From NCBI RefSeq assembly GCF_023736155.1, contig NZ_JAMLJJ010000001.1, positions 682,001-746,000 on the forward strand: a stretch of DNA of 64,000 nucleotides, given 5' to 3'. The stretch is from Larsenimonas salina (GTDB lineage: Bacteria > Pseudomonadota > Gammaproteobacteria > Pseudomonadales > Halomonadaceae). Under the pieces are notes generated by a model, which was not told where the DNA came from, did not search any database, and worked only from the letters and a program-made list of their open reading frames with translations. Shown here one piece after another: positions 5,307-51,316 of this stretch. A program made the translations under genes and the position numbers. Positions within the stretch are counted from its first letter, which is position 1. Each line of letters begins with the position of its first letter.

Positions 5307-5335
5307 TTGACGGGCTCGCAGCGCCTCAATAGGAT
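5307..5335 (+). promoter_or_regulatory. Candidate sigma-70 promoter for the riboswitch-controlled cob operon
   Basis: TTGACG (5307-5312), a 17-bp spacer and TAGGAT (5330-5335) give a good sigma-70 match. Transcription would begin about 5342, exactly where the cobalamin riboswitch begins. The -35 box is only 9 bp from the -35 of the divergent candidate cobT promoter, so the two probably compete or share regulators. Confidence 0.6.
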
Positions 5336-5340
5336 GGTCG

Positions 5341-5468
5341 CCACGCACAGGTGCCCGGCCGCACGCCGGGATAATCGGGAAAGTGATGTGAGTTCACTGC
5401 TGTCCCCGCAACGGTAAGCCGCCCGCCTCGGTTCGAGACGGCTGCAAGCCCGGAGACCGGCCTGATGC
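5341..5468 (+). promoter_or_regulatory. Cobalamin (B12) riboswitch
   Basis: The conserved blocks of the adenosylcobalamin aptamer occur in order on the plus strand. AGGTGCCCG is at 5349. GGGATAATCGGGAA (5368-5381) follows. The core GCTGTCCCCGCAACGGTAA is near 5399-5417, and the 3' block AAGCCCGGAGACCGGCC is near 5446-5462. It is oriented toward the chelatase-cobW operon starting at 5572 and would repress it when cobalamin is abundant. No clear intrinsic terminator follows, so control is more likely translational. A short GCGG/CCGC hairpin precedes the ribosome binding site region. Bases 5237-5571 otherwise hold only the two promoters and a possible leader ORF. Confidence 0.93.
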
Positions 5469-5518
5469 GCTTTTGTTCACCTCTCTTGACGCGTACGGGC
5501 GATGCGCGGGAACGGACC

Positions 5519-5575
5519 ATGACACCACACGTTTTGATGATCGCGGCGACCGCGCTTAACGGAGTTGCCCGATGA
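5519..5575 (+). CDS. Possible 18-residue leader peptide ORF between riboswitch and operon
   Basis: An ATG at 5519, preceded by a plausible Shine-Dalgarno (GGGAACGGA), opens an 18-codon frame (MTPHVLMIAATALNGVAR). Its TGA at 5573-5575 overlaps the ATG of the chelatase gene. That geometry is typical of translational coupling and would place the leader between the aptamer and the first large gene. I recognise no family. It may be chance; no homologues can be checked here. Confidence 0.25.
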   Translation: MTPHVLMIAATALNGVAR

Positions 5576-7347
5576 GCACGCCTCCCCTGTTTCCGTTCAC
5601 GGCCGTGATCGGTCAAGGCACGCTCAAGCGCGCCTTGATGCTTGCAGCCATCGAGCCTCGCCTCGGGGGCGTGTTGATCTCAGGCCCGCGAGGCAGTGCG
5701 AAATCGACGCTTGCCCGTGCGCTCGCCGCGCTTTTGCCTTCACCGGATGCCCGCTTCGTGACCCTGCCACTCGGTGCCAGCGAAGACCGCCTCACCGGCA
5801 GCCTCGACCTGGACCACGCGCTCTCTGAGCAGCGTGTGCGCTTCAATCCGGGACTTCTGGCGCAGGCCGATCAGGGCATTCTCTACATCGATGAAGTCAA
5901 CCTGCTGCCCGACAGCCTGGTCGACCAGCTCCTCGATGTGGCGGCCTCCGGCGTCAACGTGGTCGAGCGCGACGGCGTCAGCCACTCACACCCGGCCCGG
6001 TTCACGCTGATCGGCACCATGAACCCTGATGAAGGCGCGCTTCGCCCCCAGCTTGCCGACCGATTCGGTCTTCAGGTCGAGCTTGCCGATGCGCTAAGCC
6101 CCGAGCAGCGCATGGCGATTGTGCGCGCCCGCCGCGCGTTCGATGACGACCCCGAGGGCTTCTGCGCGCAGTACGCGAACGACCAGCGCGCCCTGACCGA
6201 AACCATTGCTACCGCCCGGGCGCAGCGCGCACGCGTCACCCTCGCTCCGGCGCTCGAGCTCGACATCGCCACCCGCGCCATGAACGCAGGCGTTGAGGGC
6301 GTGCGCGCCGACATCGCCTGGCAGCGCGCCGCCTGCGCTCACGCCGCGCTTGACGGCCGAACGGCTGTCACAGCCGCCGACATCGACCTGGTCGAGCCTC
6401 TGGTACTGAATCATCGGCGGACGACACCGCCGCCTCCGAATCAGGGCAATCACAATGCCCCTGATACGCCGCCACAATCGTCGTCGAACGACGCTCCGGG
6501 CGCCGATAACGATCATGAGAGCCGTGACACGAGCGAGGCCTCACCGTCTTCGGAAGACGACGGCGCGCATGGCGCCTTGCCGCCCGAGCCTCAGCCGACC
6601 GGCACCCGCCGCCGCTGGCGTCCGCTTGAGCGCAGCGCCTCCGGCGACAACGCCACCGCCCCGCTTGAGGCCGAGCGCGCTCGGCACATGGGGGGCGCCA
6701 ACAAGGGCGCCCGCCAGCACCGCAGCGCCATGGGGCCGGTCGACTGGCCGCGAACGCTTGCCGCCGGGCTTTTTGACGCCGCGCCACGGCCGCACCATCG
6801 ACGCCGTCGCACCGGCCGCCAGTCGCCCCTTCTGATCGTGCTCGACCGCTCCGGCTCGACACGTGCCGGCGCACGCTTCAGTCAGCTCAAGGGGCTTCTT
6901 GCCAACATCGTCGAGCACGCCTACCGCACCCGGCGGCAACTGGCCGTGCTGTCCTTCGGCGGCGACGGGGTTGTCTGGACGCACGCCCTCGGCCGAGCGC
7001 CGAAGCACGTCGAGACACTGCTTGCCCCGCTCGGTGCCGGCGGCGGCACACCGCTTCTGGACGCGCTCGAACGCGCGCGCTCAGAACTCGCGCGCTGGCA
7101 AAAACGCTTCAATGTTCAGGCTGAAAGCTGGCTTTTGACCGACGCCCGTGCGCCGTTTCCCAAGGCGCTTCCCCCCTGGCCCGGCGTCCTGACGATTGTG
7201 GATACCGAGCAGGGGCGCGTACGTCTTAATCGCGCCGAGGCGCTCGCCAAAGCGCTCGACGCGCAGTACACAACGCTTGACGAGTATCCGGCCCTTGATG
7301 ACACAGACGCCGATTCGACCGCACCCCCACGAGGAGCCCTTGCATGA
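5572..7347 (+). CDS. ChlI/ChlD-type chelatase subunit (AAA+ plus VWA domains), probable CobN partner
   Basis: A 591-residue protein like the fused ChlI/ChlD subunits found beside CobN in pseudomonad cobalamin loci. Residues 1-280 are an AAA+ ATPase with Walker A GPRGSAKST near 40 and Walker B ILYIDEVNLL near 105. Residues 285-410 form a low-complexity acidic, proline- and arginine-rich linker. A C-terminal von Willebrand A domain starts near 418 with the metal-binding VLDRSGST motif at about 422-429. By family logic it would power CobN-dependent cobalt insertion in place of CobS/CobT of Pseudomonas denitrificans. It is the first gene after the riboswitch, with GGAG 7 bp before the ATG, while cobN itself is 13 kb away. 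A magnesium chelatase role is unlikely, as no other chlorophyll genes occur. Confidence 0.85.
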   Translation: MSTPPLFPFTAVIGQGTLKRALMLAAIEPRLGGVLISGPRGSAKSTLARALAALLPSPDARFVTLPLGASEDRLTGSLDLDHALSEQRVRFNPGLLAQADQGILYIDEVNLLPDSLVDQLLDVAASGVNVVERDGVSHSHPARFTLIGTMNPDEGALRPQLADRFGLQVELADALSPEQRMAIVRARRAFDDDPEGFCAQYANDQRALTETIATARAQRARVTLAPALELDIATRAMNAGVEGVRADIAWQRAACAHAALDGRTAVTAADIDLVEPLVLNHRRTTPPPPNQGNHNAPDTPPQSSSNDAPGADNDHESRDTSEASPSSEDDGAHGALPPEPQPTGTRRRWRPLERSASGDNATAPLEAERARHMGGANKGARQHRSAMGPVDWPRTLAAGLFDAAPRPHHRRRRTGRQSPLLIVLDRSGSTRAGARFSQLKGLLANIVEHAYRTRRQLAVLSFGGDGVVWTHALGRAPKHVETLLAPLGAGGGTPLLDALERARSELARWQKRFNVQAESWLLTDARAPFPKALPPWPGVLTIVDTEQGRVRLNRAEALAKALDAQYTTLDEYPALDDTDADSTAPPRGALA

Positions 7348-45730: not shown

Positions 45731-45833
45731 GCGACCTCCGATAAGGCGGAAGCACATCGTCACCGAGTCCCCCCGGCCCTGAATGCCCGCCTTTCAACAG
45801 TAAATGAAATTGGTGGGGCCATTTTGCCACGCG

Positions 45834-45862
45834 TTGACACGATGAGGCGAGCTATCTAAGAT
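45834..45862 (+). promoter_or_regulatory. Sigma-70 promoter of the metNIQ leader
   Basis: A perfect -35 box TTGACA (45834-45839), a 17-bp spacer and TAAGAT (45857-45862) predict transcription starting near 45869, a few bases before the SAM-II-like aptamer. Confidence 0.75.
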
Positions 45863-45876
45863 TGCGCTCCGTTTTT

Positions 45877-45930
45877 TCGCGCCGATTTGAACCCAGCTTG
45901 CGGGGCGCTTATAAATGCCGCTAAACGGGT
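45877..45930 (+). promoter_or_regulatory. SAM-II-like (SAM-alpha/SAM-V fold) riboswitch upstream of metNIQ
   Basis: The RNA fits the SAM-II H-type pseudoknot. P1 pairs GCGCC (45879-45883) with GGCGC (45904-45908). The pseudoknot pairs AGC (45895-45897) with GCT (45920-45922) and ACCC (45891-45894) with GGGT (45927-45930). Conserved elements GATTTGA, CTTGC, ATAAATGC and GCTAAA are all present at the expected places. The downstream genes are for methionine uptake, the expected target. SAM-V shares this core and cannot be excluded. SAM-bound RNA would hold GGGT and favour the terminator just downstream. Confidence 0.88.
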
Positions 45931-45943
45931 GTGTCCAGCGTTG

Positions 45944-45969
45944 AGCCACCCTTCGGGGTGGCTTTTTTT
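45944..45969 (+). terminator. Intrinsic terminator forming the riboswitch expression platform
   Basis: AGCCACCC, loop TTCG, GGGTGGCT followed by six more Ts is an ideal terminator between aptamer and metN. CACCC (45947-45951) in its left arm can alternatively pair with GGGTG (45927-45931) of the aptamer tail, giving an antiterminator when SAM is absent. Confidence 0.93.
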
Positions 45970-46021
45970 ATGTCTGTAGTACACTTGCATCTCTCACATT
46001 GCCGACACCTTACCAGGTACC

Positions 46022-47056
46022 ATGATTCAACTTGAGCAACTCAGTAAATTCTACGGCTCGGATCACGATGCGATCTGCGCACTAAACAACGTTGACCTGA
46101 CGGTCCCCAAGGGCAGCATCACAGGCGTTATCGGTGTCTCGGGGGCGGGAAAAAGCACGCTCATTCGCTGCGTCAACATGCTCGAGCGCCCGAGCAGCGG
46201 GCGGGTACTGGTCGATGGCCAGGACCTGACTCAGCTCGATGCGCCAGCGCTTCGCAAAGCGCGCCACGACATCGGCATGATTTTTCAGCATTTTAACCTG
46301 CTCGATTCTCGCACGGTCTATCAGAATATCGCGTTTCCCCTGGAACTAATGGGCTTTGACAAGAACGCGATGAAAGAGCGTATTACGCCTCTTCTGGAAT
46401 TGACGGGCCTCAGCGACAAAAAAGACCGCTACCCTTCTGCACTTTCAGGCGGCCAGAAACAGCGCGTCGCTATTGCGCGAGCCTTGGCCAGCCGACCGAA
46501 AGTTCTTCTGTGCGATGAGGCAACCTCCGCCCTCGACCCTCAGACCACCGCATCGATCTTGGAGCTTTTGCGTGAGATCAATCAGGAGCTTGGGTTAACC
46601 ATCCTGTTGATCACGCATGAAATGGAAGTGGTCAAATCGATCTGTGACAGTGTGGCACTGATCAGCGGCGGAGAACTGGTCGAGACATCAAAAGTCGGGC
46701 CATTTTTTACCGCCCCAAGCACAAAGCTGGGGCGAGAGTTTCTGGAGGAATTCCTTCGCATCGACCCTCCAAAATCGCTGCTTGACCGGCTCTCCAGCGA
46801 TGGACGCGATAAACCCTATCCGGTGATCCGTATCATTTTCAATGATGACAACGTCGCCTCACCGCTGATCTCTCAGCTGGCCCGCTCGTTCGAACTAGAC
46901 ATCAGCATTCTTCAGGCCAAGATCGAAGACATTCAGGGATACACCCTTGGCCTGATGATCGCCGAATTCCGTGGCGATTCCGCCCATGTAGAGAAGGCAC
47001 TTGCCAAACTGTCTGATATGCAACTGTCCACGGAGGTTTTAGGGTATGTCGACTGA
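46022..47056 (+). CDS. metN: Methionine ABC transporter ATPase MetN
   Basis: A 344-residue ATP-binding subunit for methionine import. Walker A GVSGAGKSTLIRC, the signature LSGGQKQRVAIARALA and Walker B VLLCDEATSALDP lie in the first 180 residues. The C-terminal NIL domain (about 265-340, KPYPVIRIIFNDDN onward) is the allosteric methionine-sensing domain of MetN, which gives transinhibition. First gene after the SAM-responsive leader, overlapping metI by 11 bp. Confidence 0.96.
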   Translation: MIQLEQLSKFYGSDHDAICALNNVDLTVPKGSITGVIGVSGAGKSTLIRCVNMLERPSSGRVLVDGQDLTQLDAPALRKARHDIGMIFQHFNLLDSRTVYQNIAFPLELMGFDKNAMKERITPLLELTGLSDKKDRYPSALSGGQKQRVAIARALASRPKVLLCDEATSALDPQTTASILELLREINQELGLTILLITHEMEVVKSICDSVALISGGELVETSKVGPFFTAPSTKLGREFLEEFLRIDPPKSLLDRLSSDGRDKPYPVIRIIFNDDNVASPLISQLARSFELDISILQAKIEDIQGYTLGLMIAEFRGDSAHVEKALAKLSDMQLSTEVLGYVD

Positions 47057-47699
47057 CATGATGGCCCTTATCGGCCACGCCACATTGCAAACCATTTACA
47101 TGGTCTTGATCAGTGGCGTTATTTCAGGCGTGTTGGGCCTGGCACTGGGTCTGGCGCTTTACGTAACACGGCCAGGCCAGATTCTTGCGTGTCGTCCGGC
47201 GTTTCTGGTCACAAGTGCGGTCGTGAACGTCGGACGCTCGATCCCCTTTATCATCCTGATGGTGGCCATCGTTCCTTTCACTCGTCTTGTGGTAGGCACC
47301 TCTATCGGTACCAATGCAGCCATGGTGCCACTAACGATTGCAGCCATTCCCTTTGTGGCCCGGCTGATCGAAGGAGCATTGAACGAGATTTCGCCCGGAC
47401 TGATCGAGGCGGCTCAAGCCATGGGGGCGACACCGAAGCAGATCGTTACCAAAGTACTGATCCCGGAAGCGCGAGGCGGCATCATTACGAGCATTACCAT
47501 CACGATTGTTACACTCATAAGCTACTCGGCCATGGCCGGTGCCGTTGGCGGTGGCGGTCTGGGTGACGTCGGCATTCGCTACGGGTATAACAGGTTCGAG
47601 CCGTTGATCATGCTGGTGACGGTCGCCATTTTGGTGATCATGGTTCAAGGCGTGCAGATGCTTGGCGACTCGATGGTCAAACGCGCCAACCACAAATAA
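47046..47699 (+). CDS. metI: Methionine ABC transporter permease MetI
   Basis: A five- or six-helix permease of 217 residues. The N-terminal TLQTIYMVLISGVISGVLGL and the EAA-type coupling loop EGALNEISPGLIEAAQAMGATPKQIVTKVLIPEA (two parts, about 112-145) are the hallmarks. GAVGGGGLGDVGIRYGYNRF closes the family pattern. It follows metN and precedes the binding lipoprotein. Confidence 0.96.
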   Translation: MSTDMMALIGHATLQTIYMVLISGVISGVLGLALGLALYVTRPGQILACRPAFLVTSAVVNVGRSIPFIILMVAIVPFTRLVVGTSIGTNAAMVPLTIAAIPFVARLIEGALNEISPGLIEAAQAMGATPKQIVTKVLIPEARGGIITSITITIVTLISYSAMAGAVGGGGLGDVGIRYGYNRFEPLIMLVTVAILVIMVQGVQMLGDSMVKRANHK

Positions 47700-47732: not shown

Positions 47733-48545
47733 ATGCAACTACCTCTTCGTTCACTGGCTATGGCCGCCCTTACCCTTGGTTCAGTCGCACTGGCCGGCTG
47801 TGGCAGCTCGGAAACGGATGACGCCACGGTCAAGGTCGGCACGATGTCAGGCCCTGAAACCACGGTTATGGAAACGGCCAAGAAAATCGCCAAGGAGAAG
47901 TACGGGCTGGACGTTCAGATCGTCGAATTCACTGACTACAACTCTCCGAATGCGGCGCTTGCTGACGGCAGTCTCGACGCCAACGCCTATCAGCACAAAC
48001 CCTACCTTGAAAGCATGGTTAACGACCGCGGCTACAAGTTTGCGGTAGCTGGCGCCACGTTTGTCTATCCGATCGGTGCCTATTCCGAGCGCTACGACAG
48101 CCTCGAGGATCTTCCAGACGGCGCCACGATCGCCATTCCCAACGACCCCTCCAATGAGGGCCGCTCGCTGATCCTGATGGACAAGAATGGGTTGATCACG
48201 CTCAAGGACAATACTGATTTGAATGCCACGCCGATGGACATTTCAAAGAACCCGCACAACTTCAAGTTCAATGAAATCGATGCAGCGCAACTGCCACGCA
48301 CGCTTCAGGATGTTGACCTTGCCTTTATCAATAACACATACGCCCAACCCGCCGGCTTAAGCCTCCAGGACGATGCGCTTATCACGGAAGGTCCGGATTC
48401 GCCCTACGTGAACCTGATCGTAGTGCGCGCCGGTGACCAGGATAAGGAAAAGATCAAGCATCTGGTCGAGGCCTATCAGACAGATGAAGTCGCTGAGAAA
48501 GCGGAAGAGCTGTTTAAGGGCGCCGCCGTTCCCGGCTGGAAATAA
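47733..48545 (+). CDS. metQ: Methionine-binding lipoprotein MetQ
   Basis: A 270-residue substrate-binding lipoprotein. The signal peptide ends in the lipobox ALAGC with Cys23. The NlpA/MetQ family features VKVGTMSGPETTVMETAKKIA, VEFTDYNSPNAALADGSLDANAYQH (in two parts) and IPNDPSNEGRSLILMDKNGLI are present. It sits 33 bp after metI with CAGGGAG upstream. An inverted repeat (48554-48580) separates it from msrC. Confidence 0.95.
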   Translation: MQLPLRSLAMAALTLGSVALAGCGSSETDDATVKVGTMSGPETTVMETAKKIAKEKYGLDVQIVEFTDYNSPNAALADGSLDANAYQHKPYLESMVNDRGYKFAVAGATFVYPIGAYSERYDSLEDLPDGATIAIPNDPSNEGRSLILMDKNGLITLKDNTDLNATPMDISKNPHNFKFNEIDAAQLPRTLQDVDLAFINNTYAQPAGLSLQDDALITEGPDSPYVNLIVVRAGDQDKEKIKHLVEAYQTDEVAEKAEELFKGAAVPGWK

Positions 48546-48599: not shown

Positions 48600-49067
48600 G
48601 TGAGTCTTGATTCGATGACATATACGCTTTTAGAACGCCAGCTGGATGCGCTTTTGGACACCCGAGACTGGGTTACCAATACCGCTCAAATGAGCGCCTT
48701 CCTGTTCAATACACTTTCAGACGTCAATTGGGTCGGCTTTTATCTACATCACACGTCATCGGTTCTGAGTCTTGGCCCCTTTCAAGGCAAGCCCGCCTGC
48801 AATCCGATTCCCTTTTCAAAAGGCGTTTGCGGCAAGGCCGCCACCACGCGCCAGACTCAACGCGTTGATGATGTTCACAGCTTCCCCGGCCACATTGCCT
48901 GCGATGAAGCATCGCGCGCCGAATTGGTCGTTCCACTGGTGGTAGGCGATACGCTCTGGGGAGTGCTGGATATCGATAGTCCGCGCCCGAATCGATTTAG
49001 CGAAGATGATGCCCGGTTAATAGAACGTTTGTGCGCTCTATTCATGGAGCGCACTGATCTCGTATAA
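48600..49067 (+). CDS. msrC: Free methionine-(R)-sulfoxide reductase (GAF domain)
   Basis: A 155-residue fRMsr that reduces free L-methionine-R-sulfoxide. TNTAQMSAFLFNTLSDVNWVGFY (in two parts), LGPFQGKPACNPIPFSKGVCG and GHIACDEASRAELVVPLV match E. coli YebR/MsrC, with the three redox cysteines retained. The start is either GTG at 48600 or ATG at 48615. Its location after metNIQ suggests that imported oxidised methionine is repaired. It is probably read from the same SAM-controlled promoter. Confidence 0.9.
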   Translation: MSLDSMTYTLLERQLDALLDTRDWVTNTAQMSAFLFNTLSDVNWVGFYLHHTSSVLSLGPFQGKPACNPIPFSKGVCGKAATTRQTQRVDDVHSFPGHIACDEASRAELVVPLVVGDTLWGVLDIDSPRPNRFSEDDARLIERLCALFMERTDLV

Positions 49068-51056: not shown

Positions 51057-51132
51057 GGTAGGACCGAGCGGATTTGAACCGCTGACCTCCACGATGTCAA
51101 CGTGGCGCTCTAACCAACTGAGCTACGGTCCT
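51057..51132 (-). tRNA. tRNA-Val (anticodon GAC), copy 2 in transcription order
   Basis: A 76-base cloverleaf with acceptor AGGACCG/CGGTCCT, D arm GCTCAGTTGGTTAGAGC, anticodon arm CCACG-TTGACAT-CGTGG (anticodon GAC), T arm AGCGG-TTCAAAT-CCGCT and an encoded CCA. It is identical to the copy at 51163-51238 and is followed by a terminator. Confidence 0.97.
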
Positions 51133-51162: not shown

Positions 51163-51238
51163 TGGTAGGACCGAGCGGATTTGAACCGCTGACCTCCACG
51201 ATGTCAACGTGGCGCTCTAACCAACTGAGCTACGGTCC
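51163..51238 (-). tRNA. tRNA-Val (anticodon GAC), copy 1 in transcription order
   Basis: This copy is identical in all 76 bases to the downstream one, including encoded CCA. The 30-bp spacer differs from the tRNA, so this is a clean tandem duplication. Both are read from a promoter in 51239-51316 or further upstream. Confidence 0.97.
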
Positions 51239-51316
51239 TGCTAGGGGTCTTGCCTGATCAACGCTGCGCAATTTTACGGATTTGCCTTTTGAATGCAAGC
51301 ATTTAAATGACTTTTT

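Follow-up and report, generated by a model that had tools for sequence, protein, structure and literature searches.

A putative SAM-II riboswitch with an intrinsic terminator upstream of metNIQ-msrC in Larsenimonas salina, and its P3-bearing relatives in Halomonadaceae

The window, by which we mean the whole 64,000-nt stretch of L. salina DNA analysed here, carries on its forward strand a methionine-import gene set in which metN (46022–47056; best family TIGR02314 at 461.8 bits, under its 499.7-bit cut-off) is followed by metI (47046–47699; NF008049, 250 bits, over the cut-off), the gene of the MetQ lipoprotein (47733–48545; TIGR00363, 323.7 bits, over the cut-off) and a GAF-type ORF (48600–49067). 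The latter probably encodes a free-methionine-(R)-sulfoxide reductase (msrC/yebR), as judged by phmmer matches to the PDB chains 1vhm (YebR) and 3mmh (methionine-R-sulfoxide reductase), and gave no match in an NCBIfam search. MetN is 97.7% identical to that of Larsenimonas suaedae DSM 22428 (NZ_JAMLJI010000001.1), and the gene upstream of the metN leader, on the opposite strand, is that of riboflavin synthase. Elsewhere in the window are a cobalamin riboswitch (5335–5479, + strand, 81.1 bits), with a chelatase-like ORF (5572–7347) and the next two ORFs behind it, which from their look we take to serve cobalamin synthesis, and two tRNA genes of equal score and identical sequence that lie 33 bp apart on the − strand (51059–51132 and 51166–51239).

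The segment ahead of metN is ordered as promoter, SAM-II aptamer, linker and UUCG terminator, with metN 52 nt further on. A preliminary description had named here a SAM-II-like riboswitch between a TTGACA-N17-TAAGAT promoter and a UUCG terminator, and our searches of 45750–46040 found each of these flanking elements as the sole one of its kind: the sigma-70-like promoter (45834–45862; −35 at 45834–45839, −10 at 45857–45862), with 10/12 matches (shuffle mean 0.2) and its end 16 nt 5′ of P1, and the intrinsic terminator (45943–45969; hairpin at 45943–45964, T run to 45969; shuffle mean 0.3), which is conserved in homologues. P1 and the motifs GATTTGA, CTTGC, ATAAATGC and GCTAAA likewise lie where they had been placed. 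In the Rfam alignment and in that of our own model R1 (below), P1 pairs 45879–45883 GCGCC with 45904–45908 GGCGC and encloses GAUUUGA (45884–45890), the putative third strand of the ligand-binding triplex (role taken from PMC6061858), together with the UUGC strand. The pseudoknot had been drawn as ACCC/GGGU plus AGC/GCU, and the first of these, P2a (45891–45930; 45891–45894 ACCC with 45927–45930 GGGU), was retained. The second had to be replaced: in the solved SAM-II/SAM-V fold, as described in PMC6061858, UUGC pairs with GC-AA and the U of GCU contacts the ligand adenine, and this geometry, whose transfer to the window sequence is our own, predicts a P2b core (45898–45924) in which 45898–45901 UUGC pairs with 45920–45921 GC and 45923–45924 AA, with U45922 bulged. 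All P2 pairs, in P2b and P2a alike, are possible in the window, and P2b in the window's genus is possibly extended by 45902–45903 GG pairing with 45918–45919 CC. AAA at 45913–45915 is a candidate A-minor strand adjoining P1 (role again from PMC6061858), and the near-invariant 13-nt linker GUGUCCAGCGUUG (45931–45943) leads from aptamer to terminator. The P3 hairpin discussed below is absent from the window, where 18 nt separate UUGC from GCUAAA. Folded alone by thermodynamics the leader is ordinary (z −0.74), and the support for the aptamer is comparative.

In a permissive cmscan, RF00521 (SAM_alpha) matched the leader at 45869–45944 with 29.6 bits (E 4e-5 in 251 nt). Because this is below the RF00521 gathering score of 36 bits, which is a curation threshold and not a structural feature, a default Rfam scan leaves the leader unreported. 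Genome-wide, the leader had an E-value of 1.2e-4, and the three other places listed at E up to 10 scored 12.6 bits or less, leaving a single copy of the element in the whole genome by RF00521. At E up to 10 all 14 control genomes gave some match, none over the cut-off, and at E 1e-3 none of the 14 did. We also built a covariance model, R1, from 34 metN leaders of other genera, with none of g1, which includes P1, P3 and the terminator; R1 found the window, which stands outside the model, at 82.8 bits with a genome-wide E of 5e-18, R1 E-values being rough owing to a short calibration. The SAM-II-like assignment proposed earlier is thus borne out by both models. RF01826 (SAM-V) gave no match in the leader at E up to 10, and SAM-V identity was rejected on this ground. 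In addition, SAM-V is described as a translational switch whose P2a, of 2 bp, covers the Shine-Dalgarno sequence, whereas the window has a terminator between aptamer and metN and lacks P3; the predicted pseudoknot and ligand site are as in SAM-V (PMC6061858). Phe_leader, STnc100, RefA9 and further Rfam families matched the leader far below their own cut-offs and were dropped. As a separate observation, Bp2_287 (RF02424, listed as a Burkholderia ‘sRNA’) aligns to the antisense strand of a SAM-II leader and its terminator at a Halomonas-group locus (L014, 1485–1602, minus strand; 27.9 bits, E 1.8e-4, cut-off 70) and, at 16.5 bits, to the minus strand of the window (45847–45966); it is possible that Bp2_287 models a SAM-II-like leader from the wrong strand.

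The closest known systems are the alphaproteobacterial SAM-II elements, for example those of Agrobacterium tumefaciens metA and Sinorhizobium meliloti metZ, with which the window shares P1, the P2 pseudoknot, a promoter just before P1 and a putative intrinsic terminator after P2 (PMC1273637, PMC9373788). Like these, it places a SAM-II aptamer upstream of methionine/SAM genes, here metNIQ; the targets in the survey of PMC4239095 are mainly metY, and also metA, metX, metC, hom and metW. Unlike known SAM-II, the window scores under the Rfam cut-off, and most related leaders carry P3. For the betaproteobacterial ‘metXZ’ element of Leyn et al. (2014), which lies upstream of metX/metZ, PMC4239095 gives a possible pseudoknot (regions 1-4 and 2-6) with a terminator behind it, and we suggest that this element may be identical with SAM-II.

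Relatives of the leader are frequent in the family. MetN was found in 255/275 Halomonadaceae genomes (E 1e-100), and 77 of the 95 family genomes examined have the SAM-II core before metN (linker in 71, recognised terminator in 69), which is not a random rate because the leader loci were partly hand-picked: seven came from RF00521 matches, and the rest were loci returned by the MetN search plus 60 regions picked from its list. One leader, L075, failed the P1 rule and was added by exact string match. By genus, the core was found in 15/17 genomes of g8, 7/8 of g14 and 0/15 of g20. Leaders of g4, g9 and g10 have the aptamer but neither the linker nor a recognised terminator, so the terminator platform is not universal. 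With these counts, the earlier view that a SAM-II element on a methionine importer is unusual does not hold. An exact scan for GCTAAAVGGGTGTGTCCAGCG returned at least 118 stretches, and the 80 matches listed all fall in genera that we take, in part by assumption, to belong to Halomonadaceae; among these 80, metN starts 96–218 nt downstream in 72, four stretches end 221–381 nt past the pattern and are too short to tell, and four, from Salinicola, have no metN in the stretch.

For alignment, 71 leaders with a recognised terminator end were reduced to 43 by removal of near-duplicates (A1), and a smaller set of 34 (A2) was derived, from which L074 and L076 (g1) were excluded since MAFFT misplaced their P1 3′ strand, and from which L117, L141, L144, L146, L152, L162 and L163 were left out by hand, some for an awkward P3 alignment. 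Because this hand choice could flatter P3, we recounted on all 43 leaders, and the picture was unchanged: 96.2% of cells were paired in the 34 leaders compared to 88.9% in shuffles, with a covariation score of 0.202 versus 0.077, and the corresponding values for the 43 were 96.5% and 89.5%, and 0.173 and 0.066. None of 500 shuffles reached the observed pairing or covariation values, a count that related rows make optimistic. At P1, two of six pairs show changes on both sides in both alignments, and at P3 all six outer pairs do. GAUUUG is invariant in A1 and A2, as are the four P2b pairs UUGC/GC-AA; P2a cells are paired in 95.6% and 95.9% of cases in the 34 and 43 leaders respectively, its three C-G pairs being invariant in A2 and one U-G appearing in A1. 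Since P2b never varies within the family, and P2a and the terminator hardly do, covariation tests mainly P1 (two pairs) and P3, and it is by conservation that the P2 pseudoknot, whose pairs show no covariation, is supported. Its strands are kept in the 34 and in the 43 homologous leaders, in line with the pseudoknot conservation that the preliminary description would expect.

From its architecture and relatives, we consider it about 90% probable that the leader is a SAM-II riboswitch turning off metNIQ-msrC by transcription termination. RNA polymerase would start just 5′ of P1 and, at high SAM, the nascent RNA would take the SAM-II pseudoknot (P1, P2b UUGC/GC-AA and P2a ACCC/GGGU); P2a would sequester GGGUG, the terminator hairpin GCCACCC-UUCG-GGGUGGC would form and transcription would stop before metN. 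At low SAM, GGGUG would instead pair with CACCC in the 5′ arm of the terminator, no hairpin would form and the importer would be made. We infer that the leader binds SAM, that switching runs in this direction, that the antiterminator forms and that msrC is co-transcribed, and regard SAM-responsive termination at this leader as well motivated and consistent with what is described for SAM-II (PMC1273637, PMC9373788). The proposed antiterminator (45927–45951), derived from the sequence and RNAalifold, pairs 45927–45931 GGGUG with 45947–45951 CACCC, and the alternatives are mutually exclusive, in that GGGUG can serve in P2a with ACCC or in the antiterminator with CACCC, and CACCC in the antiterminator or in the terminator. 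RNAalifold of A2 with the 3′ arm cut off gave GGGUG.GUC with GCCA.CCC and, with the arm present, the terminator. Antitermination through this complementarity had been put forward in the preliminary description, and it is indeed in place, plausible and conserved; in the window alone, however, the duplex is not better than in shuffles (p 0.113). Of 62 loci given, 47 leaders, not all of them independent, could be scored, and the duplex of tail and terminator 5′ arm reached p ≤0.05 in 11 of these, with ~2.4 expected. In some other families, the terminator arm offers UUUAGC or UUUAGU as a possible partner for GCUAAA itself (L189, L204, L205, L207). A search for MetJ recovered the E. coli control but nothing in any of eight family genomes, and the leader is a candidate regulator of methionine import in this family; it is compact and might be used as a natural sensor of SAM in halophiles.

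The ligand is not readable from the sequence alone and the target is a methionine importer, which would also suit a SAM-II-like fold that binds a ligand other than SAM, such as SAH or methionine. This we consider scarcely credible, since the bases that contact SAM or sense its sulfonium as described in PMC6061858 (UUU of GAUUUG, UU/AA, and U and the third A of GCUAAA) are kept, homologous leaders precede metK and metZ-type genes, and PMC1273637 reports SAM-II to be unresponsive to 1 mM SAH or methionine. Equally remote is attenuation by a leader peptide, in which translation of the frame ATG CCG CTA AAC GGG TGT GTC CAG CGT TGA from 45915 would set the terminator. The window has this frame, and several relatives have it with an ATG or GTG start, but by eye the g6, g17 and g22 leaders, as well as L076 and L092, lack such a start, the L088 frame does not share this stop, and the frame has no methionine codon past its start and no Shine-Dalgarno sequence. 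Moreover, identity at third codon positions argues for a constraint at the RNA level. On these grounds we rejected the leader peptide.

Salinicola (g20) bears on a further alternative, that the leader, once terminated, acts chiefly in trans as a small RNA with the near-invariant linker GUGUCCAGCGUUGAUG as its mRNA seed, control of metN being secondary. The linker shows more conservation than a mere spacer would require. In Salinicola, R1 found the element in 9/18 genomes, with 108.8 down to 42.9 bits, at ~7 kb from metN in eight genomes and 1.2 kb in one (G178). The linker is intact in four of these nine copies away from metN (L371–L374, which look intact as a whole) and in a fifth, L375, where the aptamer is lost or broken, linker and terminator are kept and no promoter was seen before the copy. 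Against this, in the other four (L376–L379) the linker has decayed along with aptamer and terminator, and R1 found none in 9/18 genomes. Furthermore, the 12-nt complement of the linker, CAACGCTGGACA, occurs once in the window's genome, inside the element itself; among 30 family genomes searched, several have it at further places, and shorter or partial targets may exist. The decay of copies uncoupled from metN fits a cis-acting switch for metN and argues against an independent small-RNA role, which we judge improbable, if less so than the two alternatives above. L375 is a reservation on the cis-switch reading, in which loss is presumed to have come after uncoupling.

The window element itself is unremarkable, a P3-less representative of a known class, but most of its relatives carry P3. 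A P3 hairpin of variable length lies between the P1 3′ strand and the AAxU strand in 67 of the 77 metN leaders with a SAM-II core, the window being among the ten without it, and in family leaders it adjoins a nearly invariant terminator platform. SAM-V, described from marine bacteria, has a P3 in the same place after P1, followed by adenines docking into P1, and P3 is said in PMC6061858 to be absent from SAM-II. A P3-bearing form of SAM-II on metN is thus present in most sampled genera of the family and is missed by standard annotation: a default Rfam scan reported none of five family metN leaders (L105, L113, L138, L086 and L076) and SAM_alpha in 5/15 order-level loci. This form matters more than the window itself, since it bears on the separation of the SAM-II and SAM-V classes. 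By combining P3 after P1 with a SAM-II P2a and a terminator, the Halomonadaceae metN leaders may constitute a structural bridge between SAM-II and SAM-V and, taken with the class census below, SAM-II may be one of the principal means by which MetJ-less Gammaproteobacteria sense SAM at their met genes, largely invisible at Rfam's cut-off; on this combined proposal our own judgement is evenly divided. If the bridge reading is true, SAM-II and SAM-V are one family.

In the census, which presumably includes the former Betaproteobacteria, R1 gave putative matches in 122 of 321 sampled GTDB Gammaproteobacteria, and SAM_alpha matched 107 at E 1e-3, of which 26 were over the Rfam cut-off. With 107 matching at a level where 0/14 controls do, and 26 exceeding the cut-off, the Rfam threshold is strict for this class. 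A looser RF00521 count in the family (65/275 genomes at E 0.05, nine over the cut-off, with 2/14 controls matching) was set aside because several weak matches, such as L036, L048, L049, L053 and L055 of g23, appear false, being without the core. R1 matched 39/390 genomes of the order sample, of which 13 belong to the window's family. SAM-II-like leaders in other families precede metN, metA, metZ-type, metK or metE genes: the best NCBIfam matches of 20 proteins downstream of R1 matches were MetN in three, MetA in two, the MetZ/cystathionine-synthase type in eight, MetK in six and MetE in one, and the MetN, MetA and MetE matches are under curated cut-offs. These 20/20 met genes are not a random sample, because the proteins were chosen from 46 loci after ORF inspection, where two loci (L178, L191) were offset by a contig edge and several had no clear ORF. 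MetJ was found in 2/321 class genomes (G784, G896), both absent from the R1 and RF00521 match lists. The rarity in a gammaproteobacterium assumed in the preliminary description is not supported by these numbers; SAM-II in Gammaproteobacteria had also been reported earlier, as sporadic, in PMC2258182, and it is called most common in Alpha-, Beta- and Gammaproteobacteria in PMC2704228. The census conflicts with a confinement of SAM-II to few taxa, as given in PMC3766115, where it is called narrow and recent, and in PMC4239095, where it occurs only in Rhizobiales and Rhodobacterales among the taxa surveyed, and it shows what the strict Rfam threshold hides. We found no report of the window leader in the open-access literature.

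In the course of these searches we also observed tandem SAM-II-like copies, two or more in each of 37 loci (36 in g8, plus L007 in g23), mostly 110–130 nt apart, as in L014 (1501–1690) and L037 (3010–3250 and 4225–4345). The first copy is followed by a terminator-like hairpin and the second, by eye, lies near a ribosome site. In this L014 and L037 (Halomonas group) are, by eye, like the tandem bi-mechanism SAM-II riboswitches of PMC9481103, with 44 cases in print, some of which combine a terminator with subsequent ribosome-site control, in contrast to the single copy of the window. The tandems precede an uncharacterised ORF of ~70 aa (core DDIVRPELRN) or one of 225 aa, the latter followed in L037 by an interrupted metK (Pfam S-AdoMet_synt domains), and representatives of these ORFs gave no match in Pfam (four ORFs) or PHROGs (four ORFs). 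A mixed arrangement was seen in L179 (1501–1718), where a SAM-II-like element (R1, 39.5 bits) is directly followed by a SAM-I/IV riboswitch (RF01725, 58 bits), a kind of SAM-class tandem of which seven are in print (PMC9481103).
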